From Cryobacterium sp. BB307 (GTDB taxonomy: Bacteria > Actinomycetota > Actinomycetes > Actinomycetales > Microbacteriaceae): a stretch of DNA of 64,000 nt. The translations under genes were made by a program, and so were the position numbers. Each line of letters begins with the position of its first letter. Position 1 is the first letter of the stretch. Location of the stretch: the NCBI RefSeq assembly GCF_012274275.1, contig NZ_JAANZA010000003.1, positions 248,001-312,000 of the forward strand, written 5' to 3'. A model generated the notes under the pieces. The model was not told the DNA's origin. It worked only from the letters and a program-made list of their open reading frames with translations, and did not search any database. Shown here one piece after another: positions 31,549 to 40,490 of the stretch.

Positions 31549-33333
31549 TCAGTCGGCGGCGTCGGCCGGTGCCCAGTCCCACACGTTCCAGAGCACGCCG
31601 GCCGCCAGCGGCGCCGGGGCAATACCGGTCACCGAGTCGTCGAACGCCACGGTCGCGGGGTACTGGTAGAGCGGCACCCCGTACGCGTCGGCGAACAGGG
31701 CCTCGTCCAATCGGATGCGCAACTCGAGTTGCTCGTCATCCTCGGGCGTCACCGAGAGTTGCAGGATGAGCTCGTCCACCGTCTCGTTCGAGTAGCCGTT
31801 CAGGTTGCCCTTCTCGCCGGTACCGAAGATCGACCGCACCGCCGTCACCGACAGGTTCGAGTAGTCCCACGCGAAGAGCGCCGCGTCGTAACTGGCGGTG
31901 CCCAACAGGCCAAGCCAGTCCGGGCTCGAGCAATCGGTGACCCGGAACCCAGCCTCAGCCGCGCTGTCCCGGATCAGCTGGAACTCGAGCAGGCGGCGCG
32001 GATTGCTCGGGTCGTAGAGCAGGCACACCGTCGGAGCCGACACCCCGGCCTCGGCCAGCAGCTCCCGCGCACCTTCGATGTCGGGCCGGGCATATTCCTC
32101 GGACCCGTTCTGCTCGACCGCACCCGAGTAGCCGGGCGCACCGGGCAGGAACAGCTGGGAGTCGCGCCGCACCGGCTCCGACGTCAGGTCGCCGATCGTC
32201 TGCTCCACCAGTTCGTCCCTGGGCACGGTCATCAGGAAGGCCGATCGGATGCGCGGGTCGGTGAAGACGCCGTTGGGGCTCGCGCCGAACGTGAGGTCGA
32301 GGTGCTCGTAACTGCCGTTGACCGTGTTCGCGATGGTTATGCCGTCGAGCCGGTCCAGCGTCGCCGCGACATCGGCGCTCAGTTGCGGGCTAATCACGTC
32401 GACGTCGCCCTCCTCCAGCGCCTGCACCTGCGCGAGCGGGTCGGCGATGGTGCGCACCACGACCGTCTCGTAGGTGGGCTGCTTCTCGCCGCGGTAGCGC
32501 GGGTTGGCGGTGAGGGTCACCTCGTCCCCGGGCACCAGGTTGCTGATGACGTACGGCCCGTTCGAGACCAGCAGGTCGGAGTCCTGGGCCGGGGCCTCCG
32601 CGAAGTTGTAGGCGCTGTTCCACACCCCGGCGATCGCGGCCAGGTCCTCCTCGTCGGCTGACTCAACCGCGTCGACGAGAGCCTGCTTCGCCGCATCCGG
32701 CTCGTCAATGCTCAACGCCCGCCCCGCGACGACGTGAGCGGGCACGCCGACGTCGAGCACGAGCTGCCAGTCGATGAAGTAGTGGTCGTAAGTCAGGGTC
32801 AGCGAGCGCCCGTCATCCCCGAGCTCCGGGATCTCGTTCGCGTACTGCAGCCCGGAGGTGATCGCGCCGTCGAAGTGCACCACGCCGTCCGGGAACTCCT
32901 TCGTGTACTCCCCCGTCGCCGGATCGACGTACGCGTCGTCATCGAAGTCCGGAGTGTTGAGCGCGCCAGAGTTCGCGACCCAGGCCAGCAACAGGTCGGA
33001 TGCGTCCACCGCCACGCCATCGGACCAGACCGCGTCTTGCGCCAGCTCGTAATGCACCCTGAACGGGTCGTTGGAGATGACCTCCATGCGGCCGAAGGAC
33101 TCATCAAGCACGAGCTCGGACTCATCGTTGTAGTAGGCGAAGGACGAGTTGACGGTCTGTGCGATGGCGCGGTTCGCGGGCGTGTTGCCGTAGCCGGAGT
33201 GGTCGTTGAGGGAGAAGAACGAGCCGCTCGTGGCGACGGTGACGCGACTGTCCTCGAGAACACTCTGACCGGTGCATCCGGAAAGCAGCACGAGGACACT
33301 GGCGACGACGAGCGCCGTACTGACCCTGTTGAT
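31549..33333 (-). CDS. ABC transporter family substrate-binding lipoprotein (LpqW-like), probable ATC start
   Basis: 594 residues from ATC 33333, or 580 from GTG 33291. From ATC the N-terminus is MNRVSTALVVASVLVLLSGC, a complete lipoprotein signal with Cys20. The GTG form would leave only four residues before the Cys. The Shine-Dalgarno GGGGAG ends 7 nt before the ATC, and no ATG, GTG or TTG lies between it and the in-frame TGA upstream. The rest is a periplasmic-type peptide-binding fold (SBP_bac_5): VWSDGVAVDASDLLLAW, EIPELGDDGRSLTLTY, DVDVISPQLSADVAA. It is paralogous to the binding protein at 38688-40490. Neighbour of typA as LpqW is in Mycobacterium, so it may regulate lipomannan synthesis rather than import. 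Confidence 0.88.
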   Translation of the reverse strand: MNRVSTALVVASVLVLLSGCTGQSVLEDSRVTVATSGSFFSLNDHSGYGNTPANRAIAQTVNSSFAYYNDESELVLDESFGRMEVISNDPFRVHYELAQDAVWSDGVAVDASDLLLAWVANSGALNTPDFDDDAYVDPATGEYTKEFPDGVVHFDGAITSGLQYANEIPELGDDGRSLTLTYDHYFIDWQLVLDVGVPAHVVAGRALSIDEPDAAKQALVDAVESADEEDLAAIAGVWNSAYNFAEAPAQDSDLLVSNGPYVISNLVPGDEVTLTANPRYRGEKQPTYETVVVRTIADPLAQVQALEEGDVDVISPQLSADVAATLDRLDGITIANTVNGSYEHLDLTFGASPNGVFTDPRIRSAFLMTVPRDELVEQTIGDLTSEPVRRDSQLFLPGAPGYSGAVEQNGSEEYARPDIEGARELLAEAGVSAPTVCLLYDPSNPRRLLEFQLIRDSAAEAGFRVTDCSSPDWLGLLGTASYDAALFAWDYSNLSVTAVRSIFGTGEKGNLNGYSNETVDELILQLSVTPEDDEQLELRIRLDEALFADAYGVPLYQYPATVAFDDSVTGIAPAPLAAGVLWNVWDWAPADAAD

Positions 33334-33347
33334 GCTGTGACTCCCCT

Positions 33348-33385
33348 CACTCGGCGGGGTTCAAATTACCCCACTTCGCCGAGTG
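33348..33385 (-). terminator. Hairpin between the ABC ATPase and the second binding protein
   Basis: CACTCGGCG (33348-33356) pairs perfectly with CGCCGAGTG (33377-33385) around an inner GGGG/CCCC. On the mRNA the Shine-Dalgarno of the lipoprotein gene begins right after the stem, so it may be a terminator or a stability element. Confidence 0.6.
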
Positions 33386-33388
33386 CCT

Positions 33389-35164
33389 CTAACGCTGCGA
33401 CGCGCGGTACTCGCGCCGCTCACGCTGCACGACCGGGTCGGGCACAGGGACGGCCGCGATCAGTCGCTGAGTGTACGGGTCCTGCGGGTTGCGCAGGATG
33501 TCATCGCGAGAGCCCTGCTCGACGAGCTTGCCGTTGTGCATCACCGTGATGCGGTGGGCGAGCACGTCGACGACCGCGAGGTCGTGGCTGATGAACAGGC
33601 ACGCGAACTGCAACCGGCCCTGCAGTTCCTGCAGCAGGTCGAGGAAGCGCGCCTGAACCGACACGTCGAGGGCCGACGTCGGCTCGTCGGCGACGAGCAG
33701 CTCCGGGGCGAGCGCGAGCGCGCGTGCGATACCGACGCGCTGACGCTGACCACCGGACAGCTCGTGCGGGAACCGGTTCCGGTAGCTCGTGGGCAGCTCG
33801 ACCTGGTCCAGCAGCGTCTCGACGCGCTTGTCGAGCTCTGCGCCCTTCGCCTCGCCGGCGAGGAAGATCGGCTCACCGATTGACTGGCCGATCGGCAGAC
33901 GAGGGTTGAGCGACGATGCCGGGTCCTGGAACACGATGCCCGTGCGCCGCCGGATGGGGCGCAGGTCCTTCGGCTTGGCGCGGGAGATGTCGGTGCCGAC
34001 AACGGTGAGGGTGCCCTCGGCGATCGGCAGCAGCCCGACCGCAGCGCGACCCAGCGTGGTCTTGCCGGAGCCGGACTCACCGACGAGACCCATGATCTCG
34101 CCGGGGAAGATCTGCAGGTTGATGTCGTCCGCTGCGCGGAACGCGGGAATTCGTCCGCGCTTCGGGTATTCGATCGCCACGTGTTCGAAGCTGAGGATCG
34201 GCGTTCCGGTCGGTGTTGCCTGGTGCGGCTCCCGCGGCTTGACGACGAGGTCGACCGGGGACCCGATCGCCTCGTGATGCTCGGCCGCGATCGGGTCGAC
34301 GATGGGCGCGTTCTCGATGCCGACGCCGAGGTGGGGCACGGATGCGAGCAGCTGCTGCGTGTATGGGTGCTGCGGGCGGTGGAACACGTCGAGCACGGTG
34401 CCGGTCTCAACGACGACACCGTTCTTCATGACCATGATCCGGTCGGCGAGGTCGGCGACGACACCCATGTCGTGGGTGATCAGCACGATCGCGCTGTCGA
34501 GGCGCTTGTGCAGGTTGCGCAACAGGTCCAGGATCTCGGCCTGCACAGTGACGTCCAGCGCTGTCGTCGGCTCGTCGGCGAGGAGCAGCACGGGGTCACA
34601 GGAGATCGACTGGGCGATCATCGCGCGCTGGCGCTGGCCGCCGGAGAGTTGGTGCGGGTACTTGTGGAACGACTGCTCCGGGTTCGGCATCTCGACCATG
34701 GCGAGAAGTTCGACGGCACGCTTCCTTGCCTCCTGCGGGCCGAGCAGCGGGTCGTGCGAGCGCAACGCCTCGACAATCTGGAAGCCGACGGTGTAGACAG
34801 GGTTGAGAGCCGTCATCGGCTCCTGGAAGATCACTGCGATGTCGTTCCCGCGGATGCGCCTGGCGGTCGCCGGGTCGACACCCCGCAACTGCTTGCCGAG
34901 CAGCTTGATCGAGCCACCCACCTTGGCGTTGTCGGGCAGGAGACCGAGCAGCGACATTGCGCTCGTGCTCTTGCCGGAGCCGGACTCGCCCACGATGGCG
35001 AGAACCTCACCGCGACGGACCTCGAAGTCCATCCCGATGACCGCGGGGTAGAACTCCCCGTCGACCCAGAAGTCGACATCCAGATCCTTCACCTCGAGGA
35101 TCGTCTCTGGCAGCCCGCTGGCCGCTTCGCCCTCGTGGGGCTGGAGTGTGGCCTGATCAGTCAT
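33389..35164 (-). CDS. Dual ATP-binding protein of a peptide ABC importer (DppD-DppF fusion)
   Basis: 591 residues from the ATG giving MTDQATLQPH, after Shine-Dalgarno AGGAA. Two complete ABC domains: Walker A GESGSGKST at 59-67 and GESGSGKTT in the second half; both have LSGGQRQR signatures and Walker B (LLLADEPTTALD, LLVADEPTSALD). Each ends with the HPYTQQLL or DPYTQRLI element of the oligopeptide-type C-terminal extension. This one chain supplies both ATPases of the importer whose permeases lie upstream at 35813-38520. The PH-domain gene on the opposite strand interrupts the operon, so it probably has its own promoter. Confidence 0.95.
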   Translation of the reverse strand: MTDQATLQPHEGEAASGLPETILEVKDLDVDFWVDGEFYPAVIGMDFEVRRGEVLAIVGESGSGKSTSAMSLLGLLPDNAKVGGSIKLLGKQLRGVDPATARRIRGNDIAVIFQEPMTALNPVYTVGFQIVEALRSHDPLLGPQEARKRAVELLAMVEMPNPEQSFHKYPHQLSGGQRQRAMIAQSISCDPVLLLADEPTTALDVTVQAEILDLLRNLHKRLDSAIVLITHDMGVVADLADRIMVMKNGVVVETGTVLDVFHRPQHPYTQQLLASVPHLGVGIENAPIVDPIAAEHHEAIGSPVDLVVKPREPHQATPTGTPILSFEHVAIEYPKRGRIPAFRAADDINLQIFPGEIMGLVGESGSGKTTLGRAAVGLLPIAEGTLTVVGTDISRAKPKDLRPIRRRTGIVFQDPASSLNPRLPIGQSIGEPIFLAGEAKGAELDKRVETLLDQVELPTSYRNRFPHELSGGQRQRVGIARALALAPELLVADEPTSALDVSVQARFLDLLQELQGRLQFACLFISHDLAVVDVLAHRITVMHNGKLVEQGSRDDILRNPQDPYTQRLIAAVPVPDPVVQRERREYRASQR

Positions 35165-35195: not shown

Positions 35196-35801
35196 ATGGA
35201 GACCGTGCGATTCCGCCCACTGTTCGGACGCGTGCTCGCGGTGATCGTCTGTGTGATTGCGGTGCTCGGCGTTGCCGGGTTCTTCATCGCCGGAGACCTG
35301 GCTGGCGCCGCCCGCTACGCGTGGCCCGTGCTGCTGGTCGGCGTGTTGGCCTGGGCGCTGTACTTGCGACCCGAGCTCATCATCGAAGAGCACGGCATCA
35401 CTGTTGTGAACGTCTTCCGCACTTACTTCGTGCCGTGGCCGGCCATCCAGCACATCGAGACGCGCTTCGCCGTGACACTGCACACGTCCGACGGCAAGGT
35501 GAGCGTGTGGGCGTCGCCCGCTCCCGGTCGCCACGGCGCCACCAGGGTGACGCGAAGCGACTTCACGGGCATCAGCGGCTCCGCCTACGGAAAGGCCGGC
35601 AGCCTGCGCCCGGGCGATGCGCTGACCACCGAATCGGGCGCGGCCGCCCACATCCTTCGCCTGCACTGGGAGAAGCTGCGCGACGCCGGCATGTTCGAGC
35701 ACGGCGTGGAGCCCGGCAGCGTGCGCGTGACGTGGCACAGCGCGACGATCGCTGCGATGATCGCGTTGCTCGTCGCATCGCTCGTCGGCCTGCTGCTGTA
35801 G
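35196..35801 (+). CDS. Membrane-anchored PH-domain protein
   Basis: 201 residues. Two N-terminal transmembrane helices (about 12-32 and 40-55), then a bacterial PH-like domain (ELIIEEHGITVVNVFRTYFVPWPAIQHIE, short of exact domain boundaries) and a C-terminal transmembrane helix (IAAMIALLVASLVGLLL). It lies on the opposite strand inside the peptide importer operon, 31 bp from the divergent ATPase start and 11 bp from the convergent permease stop. Function unknown; bacterial PH proteins usually bind membrane or protein partners. It may have been inserted into the operon. Confidence 0.8.
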   Translation: METVRFRPLFGRVLAVIVCVIAVLGVAGFFIAGDLAGAARYAWPVLLVGVLAWALYLRPELIIEEHGITVVNVFRTYFVPWPAIQHIETRFAVTLHTSDGKVSVWASPAPGRHGATRVTRSDFTGISGSAYGKAGSLRPGDALTTESGAAAHILRLHWEKLRDAGMFEHGVEPGSVRVTWHSATIAAMIALLVASLVGLLL

Positions 35802-35812
35802 CACCATTCCGG

Positions 35813-37003
35813 TCAGCCCTTCGGATCGCGCGGCTTGTCCGCGTGGTATCCGCGCGCGGTGCTGCCGCCGTCCTGCATGTGCTGGCCTCGCGTTGTGACC
35901 ATCGCGGCAGCGCCGTCGAGGTCACCGGCAGCGGCCAGACTGCCCGGCTTCGGGCCATTGGTGCGCTGAGCACGGCGCATCGCGCGGTCGCTCGGCATCT
36001 TCTTCTGGCGCGGGTCGAACGCGTCACGCAGACCATCGCCGATGAAGTTGACGCACAGCGCGATCGCGATGATGAAGATACCGGGCCACCAGAACAGCCA
36101 TGGACGCGTCGCGAAGGCGGCCTGGTTGTCGGACACGATCTTGCCGAGCGACGTGTCGGGTGATTGCACACCGAAGCCGAGGAAGCTCAGGGAGGTCTCG
36201 AGCAGGATCGCACCAGCCATCAGCAGTGTCGCGTTGACGATGATGACTCCCACCGCGTTCGGGAGGATGTGGCGGAAGATGATCCGGCTGTCCTTCGCCC
36301 CCGATACGCGAGCTGCGTCGACGAACTCCCGCTCACGCAGTGTGAGGAACTCACCGCGAACGAGCCGCGCGAGACCGGTCCACGCGAAGGCACCGATAAC
36401 GACACCGAGAACACCCACGCCGAGGCTGCCGTAGGTACGACCGAGCACGGCGCCGATGACGATCAGCGGGATCGTGATGATGACATCCGTGAAGCGCATG
36501 AGCACCGAGTCGACCCACTTGCGGTAGTACCCGGAGACCGCACCGACGACGACACCGATGATGGTGGCGACGAGTCCGGCGATCACCATGATGGTCAGCG
36601 ACTGCTGCGCACCGCGCATGACGACCGCGAAGATGTCGCGGCCGACCTCATCCTGGCCGAACGGGTGATTGCCGAGCTGGAAGCCGTTTCCGCCGAGGAA
36701 CTCCGGCAGGATGCTCAGCGTCGGCACTCCGCGGTTCTCCATGTCGGGCAGCTGGGTCCAGCTGTACGGCCACCATCCGGGGATTCGGATGCCGAACAGG
36801 CTGATGCCGACCGAGGTAAAGGACAGCAGCACGATGAACGCGAGCACGATAATGGCGACCATCGCAGCCCGGTGACGGAAGAACCGCCTGCGAACGATCT
36901 GCCCCTGGCTGAGACCCTCGGTCTCCTTCTGCTCGATCGAGGCTTCGCTCTGGACGACACCCGGGTCGTGCTGACCCGGCTCTTGCATTGTGATGTTGCT
37001 CAT
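35813..37003 (-). CDS. Peptide ABC importer permease (DppC type)
   Basis: 396 residues. N-terminal OppC_N helix near residue 45 and the binding-protein-dependent permease domain with EAA-like loop FVDAARVSGAKDSRIIFRHI. About six transmembrane helices. The C-terminus has an unusual hydrophilic tail of about 65 residues ending HADKPRDPKG, longer than typical DppC and likely cytoplasmic. Its ATG overlaps the upstream permease stop by one base, so they are translationally coupled. Confidence 0.93.
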   Translation of the reverse strand: MSNITMQEPGQHDPGVVQSEASIEQKETEGLSQGQIVRRRFFRHRAAMVAIIVLAFIVLLSFTSVGISLFGIRIPGWWPYSWTQLPDMENRGVPTLSILPEFLGGNGFQLGNHPFGQDEVGRDIFAVVMRGAQQSLTIMVIAGLVATIIGVVVGAVSGYYRKWVDSVLMRFTDVIITIPLIVIGAVLGRTYGSLGVGVLGVVIGAFAWTGLARLVRGEFLTLREREFVDAARVSGAKDSRIIFRHILPNAVGVIIVNATLLMAGAILLETSLSFLGFGVQSPDTSLGKIVSDNQAAFATRPWLFWWPGIFIIAIALCVNFIGDGLRDAFDPRQKKMPSDRAMRRAQRTNGPKPGSLAAAGDLDGAAAMVTTRGQHMQDGGSTARGYHADKPRDPKG

Positions 37004-38520
37004 TAGGAAACCTTGATCCTCGGGTCGAGGGCAGCGTAGAGGAGGTCGGCGATCAGGTTGAAGACCACCGCGAACGTTCCGGTGACAAGGAAGAACGCCA
37101 TGACCGGGTTCGGGTCGACTCTGTTGAGCCCCTCCACGAACAATCGGCCCATCCCTGTCCAGCCGAACACTGTCTCGGTGATGACGGCTCCACCGACGAT
37201 CGCGCCGACATCGAATGCGATGATCGTCGTGATCGGGATGAGCGCGTTACGGAAGGCATGCCGCACGATGACGGTGCGCTCGGTGAGGCCCTTGGCGCGA
37301 GCCGTTCGGATGTAGTCCTGGTTCATGACCTCGAGCAGGCTCGCACGCGAGTACCTCGTGTAGCCGGCGAAGGAGATCAGCACGATCGCGATCGTCGGCA
37401 GCAGCAGGTGCGTGAACGTGTCGATGCCCTGGATCCAGAAGTTGCCGCCCAGGTTCGGTGTCGCGGCGCCCACTGTTGCGATCGGTCGCCCGTTGATGCG
37501 CGACGAGTTCGAGTACGCCGCCCAGTACGACATGTACTTGTCGAGCGCCACGACGCTGGCGACCATGAAGCCCACGATGGCCGCAGTGCGCACCGACTGC
37601 CAACGGTCCGGTCCACCCATGAGCCAGCCGACCGCGCCACTCAGGAAGATCGTGGCGACGATCAGCGTGAGGAAGAGCGGCATGGTCATGAAATTGAAGA
37701 CGCCGTTCATCATCGGGAAGTACAGCGCGACGCCGATGCCCACCACGATGAGCGACGAGTACAGGGCCTTCTTGTTCCTGAGCCCGGTCGAGATGGCGGT
37801 GACGCCGAACGCGACCGCGACCCCAGTGATGGCAACACCGACGATGCCGATGCTCGGGGTGTTGAACCAGCCGGTGAGGCTGAAGTAGAGCAGCAGCCCG
37901 GCTGTCGCCAGAGCGGACACACCGAAGGTGATGAGCTTCTTGAGCGCTCTGCCCCCGACTATGGACATCCAGAGCAAACCTGCGATGAGGGCGACGATGA
38001 TGATCGTCGCTGTCGCGATCACCGGATCACGTAGCCAGTTGTTGATCTGGATTGCCATGTACTGCTTGAGCAACACCGCGACCCAGAAGATCGGCAGCGA
38101 GAAGAAGAGGAACGAGATGAACGTCACGCTGTAGTCGAATCCGCTGTACTGACGGAGGGCGGATGCGATGCCGACGATGATGCCCAGGACGATTGCGACA
38201 ACCGTCGCGATGGTGACCAGCTGCAGGGTTGCGCCGATCGCGTTGCCGAGCATTACGTTCACGGACTGGTTCTGCACGCTGATGCCGAAGTCGCCCCGGA
38301 AGATACCGCCAAGCCAGAGGAAGTAGCGGAAGAACGGCGGAACGTCGAGGTTCAGAAGCTTGGTGCGAGCTTCCATGAGCTCGGCCTTGTTGGGTGCATT
38401 GCTTTCGCGCAGTTCCTGTAGTGGGTCGCCCGACAGCGCTGTCAGGAGGTACATGAGGAACGTGGCGGCGAAGAGCACGAAGATCGATGCGATCAATCGC
38501 CTGATGATGAATGAAGCCAT
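37003..38520 (-). CDS. Peptide ABC importer permease (DppB type) with a central insertion
   Basis: 505 residues from ATG 38520 (MASFIIRRLIASIF), against about 310-340 for a usual DppB. The N-terminal part to about residue 170 (LLNLDVPPFFRYFLWLGGIFRGDFG) and the C-terminal part from about 360 (EVMNQDYIRTARAKGLTERT, the EAA loop) are normal. Between them lie about 170 extra residues carrying extra hydrophobic helices (VIATATIIIVALIAGLLWM, ITFGVSALATAGLLLYF, the one starting YSSLIVVGIGVALYF). I recall long permeases of this class in Microbacteriaceae; the role of the insertion is unknown. Paired with DppC and downstream of the binding protein. Confidence 0.92.
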   Translation of the reverse strand: MASFIIRRLIASIFVLFAATFLMYLLTALSGDPLQELRESNAPNKAELMEARTKLLNLDVPPFFRYFLWLGGIFRGDFGISVQNQSVNVMLGNAIGATLQLVTIATVVAIVLGIIVGIASALRQYSGFDYSVTFISFLFFSLPIFWVAVLLKQYMAIQINNWLRDPVIATATIIIVALIAGLLWMSIVGGRALKKLITFGVSALATAGLLLYFSLTGWFNTPSIGIVGVAITGVAVAFGVTAISTGLRNKKALYSSLIVVGIGVALYFPMMNGVFNFMTMPLFLTLIVATIFLSGAVGWLMGGPDRWQSVRTAAIVGFMVASVVALDKYMSYWAAYSNSSRINGRPIATVGAATPNLGGNFWIQGIDTFTHLLLPTIAIVLISFAGYTRYSRASLLEVMNQDYIRTARAKGLTERTVIVRHAFRNALIPITTIIAFDVGAIVGGAVITETVFGWTGMGRLFVEGLNRVDPNPVMAFFLVTGTFAVVFNLIADLLYAALDPRIKVS

Positions 38521-38687: not shown

Positions 38688-40490
38688 TTACTCGGAGACC
38701 TTCCAGTCCCACACGTTCCAGAAGATGGTCGGTGCGAGGATCGAGGCGTCAACGCCCTCGATGCGGTCACTGTAGGCCGTGACCTCAGGGAACTGGAAGA
38801 CGGTGACTCCGTAGCCGTCCTCCCAGAGGAGCTTGTCGATCTCCTGCTGGATCTCGATCTGGCGGTCGGCGTCGAACTCGGTGTTGAGCTCCACGATCAG
38901 CTTGTCAACCTCAGGGTTGCTGTAGAAGTTGAGGTTGTTGATGCCACCGGTCTGGAAGGTCGGGCCGGAGCTCGTGACACCGAGGCTCGTCGACTGCCAT
39001 CCGAAGAGGGATGCGTCGTACGCGCCCGGCGTACCGAGGAGGCCACCCCACTGCTCGCTACCACAGTCGGTCACATTGAAGCCGGCCTCGGCCGCGGAGG
39101 CCTGGATCAGCTGGAACTCGTTGACACGACGGGGGTTGTTCGATGCGTAGAGGATGCAGACCTCGGGGTTGGTGACGCCAGCCTCGGCGAGCAGCGCCTT
39201 CGCGCCCTCGATGTCGGTCTCTTCGTAAGCGGCCGAACCGTTGTTCGCGATCGAGTCATCGTAGCCAGCTGCGCCAGGCACAAAGAGCTGCGAGTTACGC
39301 ACGAGCGCGTCGTCACCGATGATCGGCTTGATCAGCTTGTCGACGATCTCCGCACGCGGGATCACCTTCATGAAGGCCTCACGAACCAGCGGGTTCTCGA
39401 ACGTGCCGCTCTTCGAGTTGGTGAACTGAAGGTCGACGTGCTCGTAGGTGCCACCGAGGCCGGTCGAGACCGTGATGCCATCGATCGCGTCGAGCGCGGT
39501 CTTGATGTCAGCGGTTGCCTGCGGCTGGATCACGTCGACCTCGCCGTTCTCGAGCGCCTGCACTGCTGCCAGCGGGTCCGGGATGAAGCGGACGGTGACC
39601 TCTTCGATGGCCGGCTTGTTGTCGCCGACGTACTCCGGGTTCGCCTTCAGCGTGATGAACTGGTCCGCCTGGAAGTCAGTGATGACGTACGGGCCACTGG
39701 AGAGGTAGACCTCCGGGTCGTCGGGCAGCGACGTGAAGTTGAAGCCCGAGTTCCAGAAAGCGGACAGGCCGGCAAGCGCCGCGTCGTCCTCGCTCTGGAT
39801 GGCCTCGATGGCTGCCTGCTTCGCCTCTTCGTTGTCCTCGATGCCGAGAGCGTTCTTTGCCATGACGTGAGCCGGCAGCGGCGCCGAGAAAGCAAGCTCC
39901 CAGTCGACGTACGGTGCCTCGTAGACCATGGTGATCGAACGGCCGTCGTCACCGATCTCCGGGGTCTCCTGGACGAGGCCAAGGCCAGCGTCCGGGGTCG
40001 CGCCGGAGTCGAAGTACACGACGTCGGTCGGGAAGGCGTCGGTGAACTCACCGGTGTCAGGGTCGGTGAACTCGGCCGGGTCGAAGTCCGGGGTGTCGAG
40101 CGCACGCGAGAGCGCGGCCCAGTGCACCAGAAGGTCGGCTGCGTCGATCGGCGTGCCGTCGGACCACTTCACGTCCTCGTTGACCGTGTACTTCACTGTG
40201 AGCGGGTCCTCGGAGAGCATCTCGTAGGTTCCGAACGACTCGTCCTGCACGAGCTCAGGCACGTTGTTGTAGTAGTTGAACCCGCTGAGTGCCATGTAGT
40301 TGATGTTGTTGTTCGCTGTGGCGTTGCCGAACGAGGTGTTGCCGTTGTACGAGTAGAACGCCTGGTTCCACGCGATCGTGACCTTCGTTCCCTCGTCGAG
40401 GCCGGATTCCGCCTGCGGGGTGCAGCCTGCTACCGCAAGAGCGGCAACGGCAGCGACCGCAATCGGCGCTCCTATGCGACTGATTTTCAA
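38688..40490 (-). CDS. Peptide ABC importer substrate-binding lipoprotein
   Basis: 600 residues. TTG start at 40490, four bases after a perfect AGGAGG; the frame remains open upstream but has no ribosome site. Signal MKISRIGAPIAVAAVAALAV, then lipobox AGC with Cys23. The mature part is an SBP_bac_5 fold (VKWSDGTPIDAADLLVHWAA, EIGDDGRSITMVYEAPYVDW, LYASNNPRR). It is first in the importer operon. Strong similarity to the second lipoprotein at 31549 shows duplication. Substrate: probably peptides, by family only. A palindrome at the promoter suggests repressor control. Confidence 0.93.
   Translation of the reverse strand: MKISRIGAPIAVAAVAALAVAGCTPQAESGLDEGTKVTIAWNQAFYSYNGNTSFGNATANNNINYMALSGFNYYNNVPELVQDESFGTYEMLSEDPLTVKYTVNEDVKWSDGTPIDAADLLVHWAALSRALDTPDFDPAEFTDPDTGEFTDAFPTDVVYFDSGATPDAGLGLVQETPEIGDDGRSITMVYEAPYVDWELAFSAPLPAHVMAKNALGIEDNEEAKQAAIEAIQSEDDAALAGLSAFWNSGFNFTSLPDDPEVYLSSGPYVITDFQADQFITLKANPEYVGDNKPAIEEVTVRFIPDPLAAVQALENGEVDVIQPQATADIKTALDAIDGITVSTGLGGTYEHVDLQFTNSKSGTFENPLVREAFMKVIPRAEIVDKLIKPIIGDDALVRNSQLFVPGAAGYDDSIANNGSAAYEETDIEGAKALLAEAGVTNPEVCILYASNNPRRVNEFQLIQASAAEAGFNVTDCGSEQWGGLLGTPGAYDASLFGWQSTSLGVTSSGPTFQTGGINNLNFYSNPEVDKLIVELNTEFDADRQIEIQQEIDKLLWEDGYGVTVFQFPEVTAYSDRIEGVDASILAPTIFWNVWDWKVSE

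Follow-up and report, generated by a model that had tools for sequence, protein, structure and literature searches.

Organisation of the transporter cluster

The window, a stretch of 64,000 nucleotides of Cryobacterium sp. BB307 (contig NZ_JAANZA010000003.1, positions 248,001 to 312,000), carries on its minus strand a cluster of oligopeptide-type ABC transporter genes with two binding proteins (SBPs). All coordinates without a contig prefix are positions in the window, and the limits of the ATPase and of both permeases are those of the gene model.

31549-33333, minus strand: SBP_bac_5 lipoprotein gene (PF00496), 594 codons and a stop when the ATC is taken as the start
33389-35164, minus strand: dual-domain oligopeptide-type ABC ATPase, with two stretches each of PF00005 and PF08352
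35813-36988, minus strand: permease of the OppC type (PF00528, PF12911)
37003-38520, minus strand: permease, BPD_transp_1 (PF00528)
38688-40490, minus strand: upstream paralogous SBP, 48% identical, with a TTG start behind AGGAGG

The product of the gene at 31549-33333, hereafter the SBP gene, was assigned to PF00496 (SBP_bac_5) with 119.2 bits against a cut-off of 32.4 (E=3e-34), and its sequence relatives in the PDB are binding proteins of the same family, the best being 6wm6 (E 2.4e-31). Its domain, its lipobox and its gene order with an ABC ATPase and permeases are those of the OppA/DppA-type SBP lipoproteins; it differs from them in that its score is far below the cut-off of every NCBIfam equivalog. 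A plus-strand gene of 201 aa (35196-35801) interrupts the cluster between the ATPase and permease genes, and the ATPase and the downstream SBP may thus form a separate transcription unit. The first SBP of the cluster (38688-40490) is preceded by a leader that hardly varies, TTGCACAGGAGGAA and two further bases ahead of the TTG, which recurs in relatives (L010, L032-L037, L040, L043, L044 and L046-L049) and whose conservation reaches beyond the Shine-Dalgarno (SD) sequence itself.

The start region of the SBP gene

33361-33363, minus strand: in-frame TGA upstream of the ATC
33341-33347, minus strand: SD AGGGGAG, 7 nt before the ATC, duplex -11.5 kcal/mol
33331-33333, minus strand: proposed start codon ATC
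33277-33333, minus strand: predicted signal peptide MNRVSTALVVASVLVLLSG ahead of the lipid Cys, called from the sequence and the chance filter described below
33289-33291, minus strand: first canonical in-frame start, GTG, rejected; leaves MLLSGC, SD -1.8
33276-33274, minus strand: lipid Cys codon TGC

The 5' part of the gene reads, on the minus strand, TGA(33363-33361) ACC CCG CCG AGT GAG GGG AGT CAC AGC ATC(33333), and continues after the ATC with AAC AGG GTC AGT ACG GCG CTC GTC GTC GCC AGT GTC CTC GTG(33291) CTG CTT TCC GGA TGC. The original prediction, that neither ATG, GTG nor TTG occurs from the TGA to GTG 33291 and that GGGGAG stands upstream of ATC 33333, was confirmed in this reading, the motif ending 7 nt before the ATC; translation from the ATC yielded MNRVSTALVVASVLVLLSGC and with it, as had also been predicted, a complete lipoprotein signal. 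Signal peptide and lipobox are present in the gene only when it is read from this codon. GTG 33291 was rejected as a start, as it leaves no signal peptide and has a poor SD; the earlier statement that it lacks a signal peptide thus held, while its count of four residues before the Cys had to be amended to five with the Met (MLLSG), four being the number after the Met.

All canonical codons together with CTG, ATC, ATT, ATA and GTC were scanned as possible starts. Among them, only ATC 33333 combined a top-ranked SD at a spacing of 7 nt with a signal whose n-region is basic and whose h-region is full, which supports the proposal that the ATC is the start. The gene thus has two features of genes with a near-cognate start: a canonical start that fits the N-terminus of the SBP is absent, and a well-spaced SD precedes the ATC.

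Comparison with chance

SD pairing was scored over bases -20 to -4 against the 3' end of 16S rRNA, using an assumed anti-SD rather than one taken from this genome. Pairing equal to or stronger than that before the ATC was found in 11 of 297 predicted genes (3.7%) and at 0.7% of 3000 random sites; the duplex of -11.5 kcal/mol compares with -1.8 at GTG 33291 and -2.9 at the out-of-frame GTG 33350. A signal-peptide-like filter (basic n-region followed by an uncharged hydrophobic h-region), which was written after the sequence had been seen, was passed by the stretch from ATC to GTG and by 351 of 159,895 random stop-free stretches of 14 codons (0.22%) from 400 kb of the same genome. The coding score of the ATC-GTG stretch was 0.22 in frame versus -0.60 and -0.21 in the strand's two remaining frames, and the codon score of the whole gene was above the median (rank 128 of 178 from the lowest).

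A survey of predicted genes that span 450 nt or more and carry no predicted frameshift gave six lipoprotein-like genes among 310, and only in the SBP gene did the first canonical start fall less than 14 codons before the Cys. Applied to stretches of three other genomes, the same survey found no such gene among two (G005), six (G028) and three (G007) lipoprotein-like genes; its filter misses the SBP of G005 (L003), which has a TTG 15 codons before the Cys.

The SBP gene in related genomes

At least 150 of 398 genomes of the family had a match to the SBP, among the matches listed, and among those in the genomes searched none was more than 54% identical. The 5' ends of 84 SBPs were read, comprising the loci from the searches and 40 added mostly in order of E-value; this set lacks some matches in the same E-value range and the distant loci L017, L019-L026 and L028-L031. 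An ATPase end lies upstream in 46 of the 84, from which four were dropped because the ATPase stop was more than 260 nt before the Cys, leaving 42, the window included, to be compared with 38 other SBPs; orthology was assigned by similarity and position, without a tree. Genus searches around G105, G074 and G028 gave no new orthologues, and a Microcella pacifica relative from a contig scan grouped with the SBPs of the upstream type.

A canonical start 15 to 32 codons before the Cys was absent in five of the 42 SBPs that follow an ATPase (L001, which is the window, L050, L060, L071 and L096) and in none of the 38 others. L060 and L096 have a canonical start slightly upstream of this range. Alignment of orthologues to see whether they carry ATG or GTG at this place had been put forward as a check of the original prediction, and its outcome was divided: most begin with ATG, GTG or TTG and have comparable signals, but two others were also without a usable canonical start. 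ATC was the best start candidate in no orthologue read, none of them being a close relative; the ATC of L050, 15 codons before the Cys, has an SD of -2.1 and leaves no basic residue.

In L003 (same genus, 54% identical), the only canonical start within the range is the TTG at 15 codons, which leaves no basic residue. A CTG that overlaps the ATPase stop as CTGA would give MTVRRHTRGALLGAFLAVCALLLSGC; its SD is weak (-1.7), and a start there would call for reinitiation. In L050 (G074, another genus), a CTG would give MLHTLARRNRIVAATTVAATLILGGC, with AGGA seven bases upstream and an SD of -4.5, about the gene median of the genome studied here (G000). Both may perhaps start at CTG; these calls are tentative since CTG was without enrichment in the available text of a start codon selection in mycobacteria (PMC4633059). 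The last of the five, L071 (G408), has no start in frame, and a GTG behind a TAGGGT box lies just out of frame, which is better explained by a frameshift than by a near-cognate start.

The leader and a possible promoter

33348-33385, minus strand: intergenic hairpin just after the ATPase stop, -21.8 kcal/mol (z -2.34; matched by 2 of 200 shuffles)
33363-33368, minus strand: TAATTT, a possible -10 element (TANNNT), from its sequence only

The ATPase gene ends 55 nt before ATC 33333. The SD begins immediately 3' of the hairpin, and the out-of-frame GTG 33350 sits within its stem. Only the 55-nt intergenic piece folds differently from shuffles, the fold of a 91-nt stretch being indistinguishable from them (z -0.42). 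The SD was unpaired in the hairpin fold and in the 91-nt centroid, lay in a small loop in the fold of a shorter fragment, and was in part weakly paired to the ATC region in the 91-nt minimum-energy fold.

TAATTT stands 29 nt before the ATC, and a transcript from it would have a leader of about 22 nt, SD included; that it is the promoter of such a short, SD-bearing leader is a guess. A consensus scan gave no sigma-70 hexamer pair. Across the relatives, TANNNT occurred 6-8 nt before the candidate start (peak at 7) in 14 of the 42 SBPs that follow an ATPase (e.g. L007, L042, L045, L059 and L078) versus 4 of the 38 others; 18-nt shuffles gave a mean of 0.97 and a maximum of 5 in 1000, and several of the 14 are closely related. 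The SBP behind the ATPase thus often seems to have a leaderless promoter of its own. At ATC 33333, TANNNT was not found at this distance, and leaderless initiation there was therefore rejected.

Probable near-cognate starts elsewhere in the lineage

IF3 was found in 58 of 60 relatives and in 7 of 8 genomes of the same genus. Thirty infC loci were read and the N-terminus was placed by motif in 28 (L160-L185, L188 and L189), the other two not being placed. The start position was ATC in 27 of these 28 and ATT in one, with ATC in all seven loci of the genus; GGAG, AGGA or GAGG lay within 16 nt upstream in every one of the 28, and 24 have no canonical codon within 25 codons before the motif.

Outside the window, a VTT-domain, dedA-like gene (G000:C3:200607-201341; L109:607-1341) has no canonical start until a GTG 26 codons on and appears to begin with CTG. 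A start codon stands at the aligned first position in 14 of 20 loci, being CTG in G000 and G001, TTG in five, ATG in four and GTG in three; in the other six the canonical codon lies 1 to 12 codons off. The G001 gene, from the same genus, is 86% identical, and its GTG four codons upstream has an SD of -0.3 versus -7.7 for the CTG. We argue from these sequences that the CTG start, being found in two separate assemblies, would be inherited rather than an error. A list of extended frames also flagged a gene at about 332650 of G000:C3, presumably wecB-like, which looks broken rather than weakly started, being short and not in frame with the ATG that precedes it, as well as several further frames of low plausibility.

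Interpretation of the proposed ATC start

We put at roughly three in four the probability that the SBP gene encodes a real second SBP lipoprotein of the oligopeptide-type transporter, translated from ATC 33333. Besides the sequence features and the SD rank, three further points support this reading: the ATC at the start of infC in the lineage, the low predicted frameshift load of the assembly, and the CTG of the dedA-like gene in the same genome at a codon where relatives have TTG, ATG or GTG. Counting against it are the orthologues read, in none of which ATC is the best candidate, and the weak partial pairing of the SD in the 91-nt minimum-energy fold. The initiator tRNA would pair with the first two bases of AUC, the third being mismatched, and the extended SD AGGGGAG at 7-nt spacing would make up for the mismatch; one accordingly expects weak initiation that IF3 reduces. 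With an AUC that pairs weakly behind a strong SD, little would be made of the SBP, which would be exported by means of its 19-residue signal and lipidated at Cys20. We infer that the AUC is used in the cell and that the yield is low; sensitivity to IF3 is plausible by analogy with infC and sigR.

The strongest rival is a recent and real loss of the start, in which a canonical codon became ATC and left the SBP silent or nearly so, an incipient pseudogene beside a functional paralogue. The same cluster opens with that paralogue, whose SD is strong and whose start is TTG and which could make the ATC-started copy dispensable; most orthologues have canonical starts, and a very recent loss would look identical to what is seen here. 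Against this, the frame is open over 594 codons with a codon score above the median, the strong SD has been kept, and infC itself begins with ATC in the lineage. We therefore consider start loss quite unlikely.

Sequence error was considered in two forms. ATC is one base away from ATG, and a single-base substitution at the start codon of the assembly would suffice; the low frameshift load (for G000, 12 predicted in 400 kb) speaks only for general assembly quality, as the frameshift test covers indels, and we regard such an error as very improbable. Frameshifts were counted by a script of our own, a codon-based gene model that includes frameshift states, and several of the 12 lie at gene ends and are perhaps artefacts; for one G000 gene the same model chose GCG as the start. 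G005, G028 and G007 had 5 in 200 kb each, a load like that of G000, which makes an indel near the ATC unlikely. In contrast, G408 (L071, L119-L128) had 68 in 200 kb, an indel-rich assembly of a kind that mimics missing start codons.

Initiation at another codon of the gene is likewise very improbable. GTC 33324, which would give MSTALVVASVLVLLSGC, has in its favour that GTC is documented as a start in Streptomyces sigR in the available text of PMC5472188, but its SD is -5.9 and it drops the only Arg; GTG 33291, with its poor SD and without a signal peptide, is the less likely of the two. Also very improbable is an indel shortly upstream of the ATC that hides GTG 33350 as the true start: the same type of event explains the missing start of L071, but the low frameshift load of G000, the SD of -2.9 and the position in the hairpin stem disfavour this GTG, and AGGGGAG would be left without a start.

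Relation to known near-cognate starts

The statements in this section follow the available text of each cited source. The autoregulated infC starts with ATT in E. coli and with ATC in Streptomyces, where IF3 represses sigR at its GTC start (PMC5472188). In the mycobacterial selection, ATC with an SD kept a low, above-background activity, and its share was 0.2% vs 9.8% for ATT (PMC4633059); in E. coli, ATT reaches about 0.3% of ATG (Hecht et al. 2017, quoted by PMC10666635). These low values count against the ATC reading. So does the finding that in vitro IF3 disfavours or excludes weak pairs at the third base, from which initiation at ATC 33333 would be expected to be weak (PMC10158994). In S. 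aureus, AUU and AUA starts are accompanied by extended SDs (PMC13009471).

The SBP gene shares with infC (IF3; AUU, AUC or AUA start) an AUC with a strong SD. infC differs in that its product is the fidelity factor and its ATC a conserved start, whereas the SBP is a transporter lipoprotein with ATC seen in one genome. sigR offers a yield-lowering noncanonical start in an actinobacterium, but one that is GTC, conserved across Streptomyces and experimentally tested (PMC5472188). A weak start with an extended SD is likewise seen in S. aureus cvfC1 (AUU) and ccpN (AUA), which differ in encoding a small protein and a regulator and in having a conserved start supported by ribosome profiling and reporters (PMC13009471). 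Among the matches listed in a literature search mostly outside subscription journals, no case of an SBP or lipoprotein beginning with ATC came up. Near-cognate starts are thus already known as a kind, and the ATC-started SBP gene is a new candidate member.

A more speculative and doubtful extension is that selection for low, IF3-tunable synthesis of the second SBP has several times in this lineage moved the start of the post-ATPase SBP to a near-cognate codon (ATC in the window, CTG in G005 of the same genus and in G074 of another). How much of each SBP is made would then depend on the level of IF3, and the dedA-like gene, for which two genomes of the same genus have CTG, would belong to the same set.

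A gene finder restricted to ATG, GTG and TTG starts the SBP at GTG 33291, as the gene model did here, and the signal peptide is lost, so that a lipoprotein is predicted to be cytosolic. If the ATC is used, a transporter lipoprotein would join the few AUC-initiated bacterial genes, and this would suggest that annotation rules hide more weak-start genes where infC begins with AUC.
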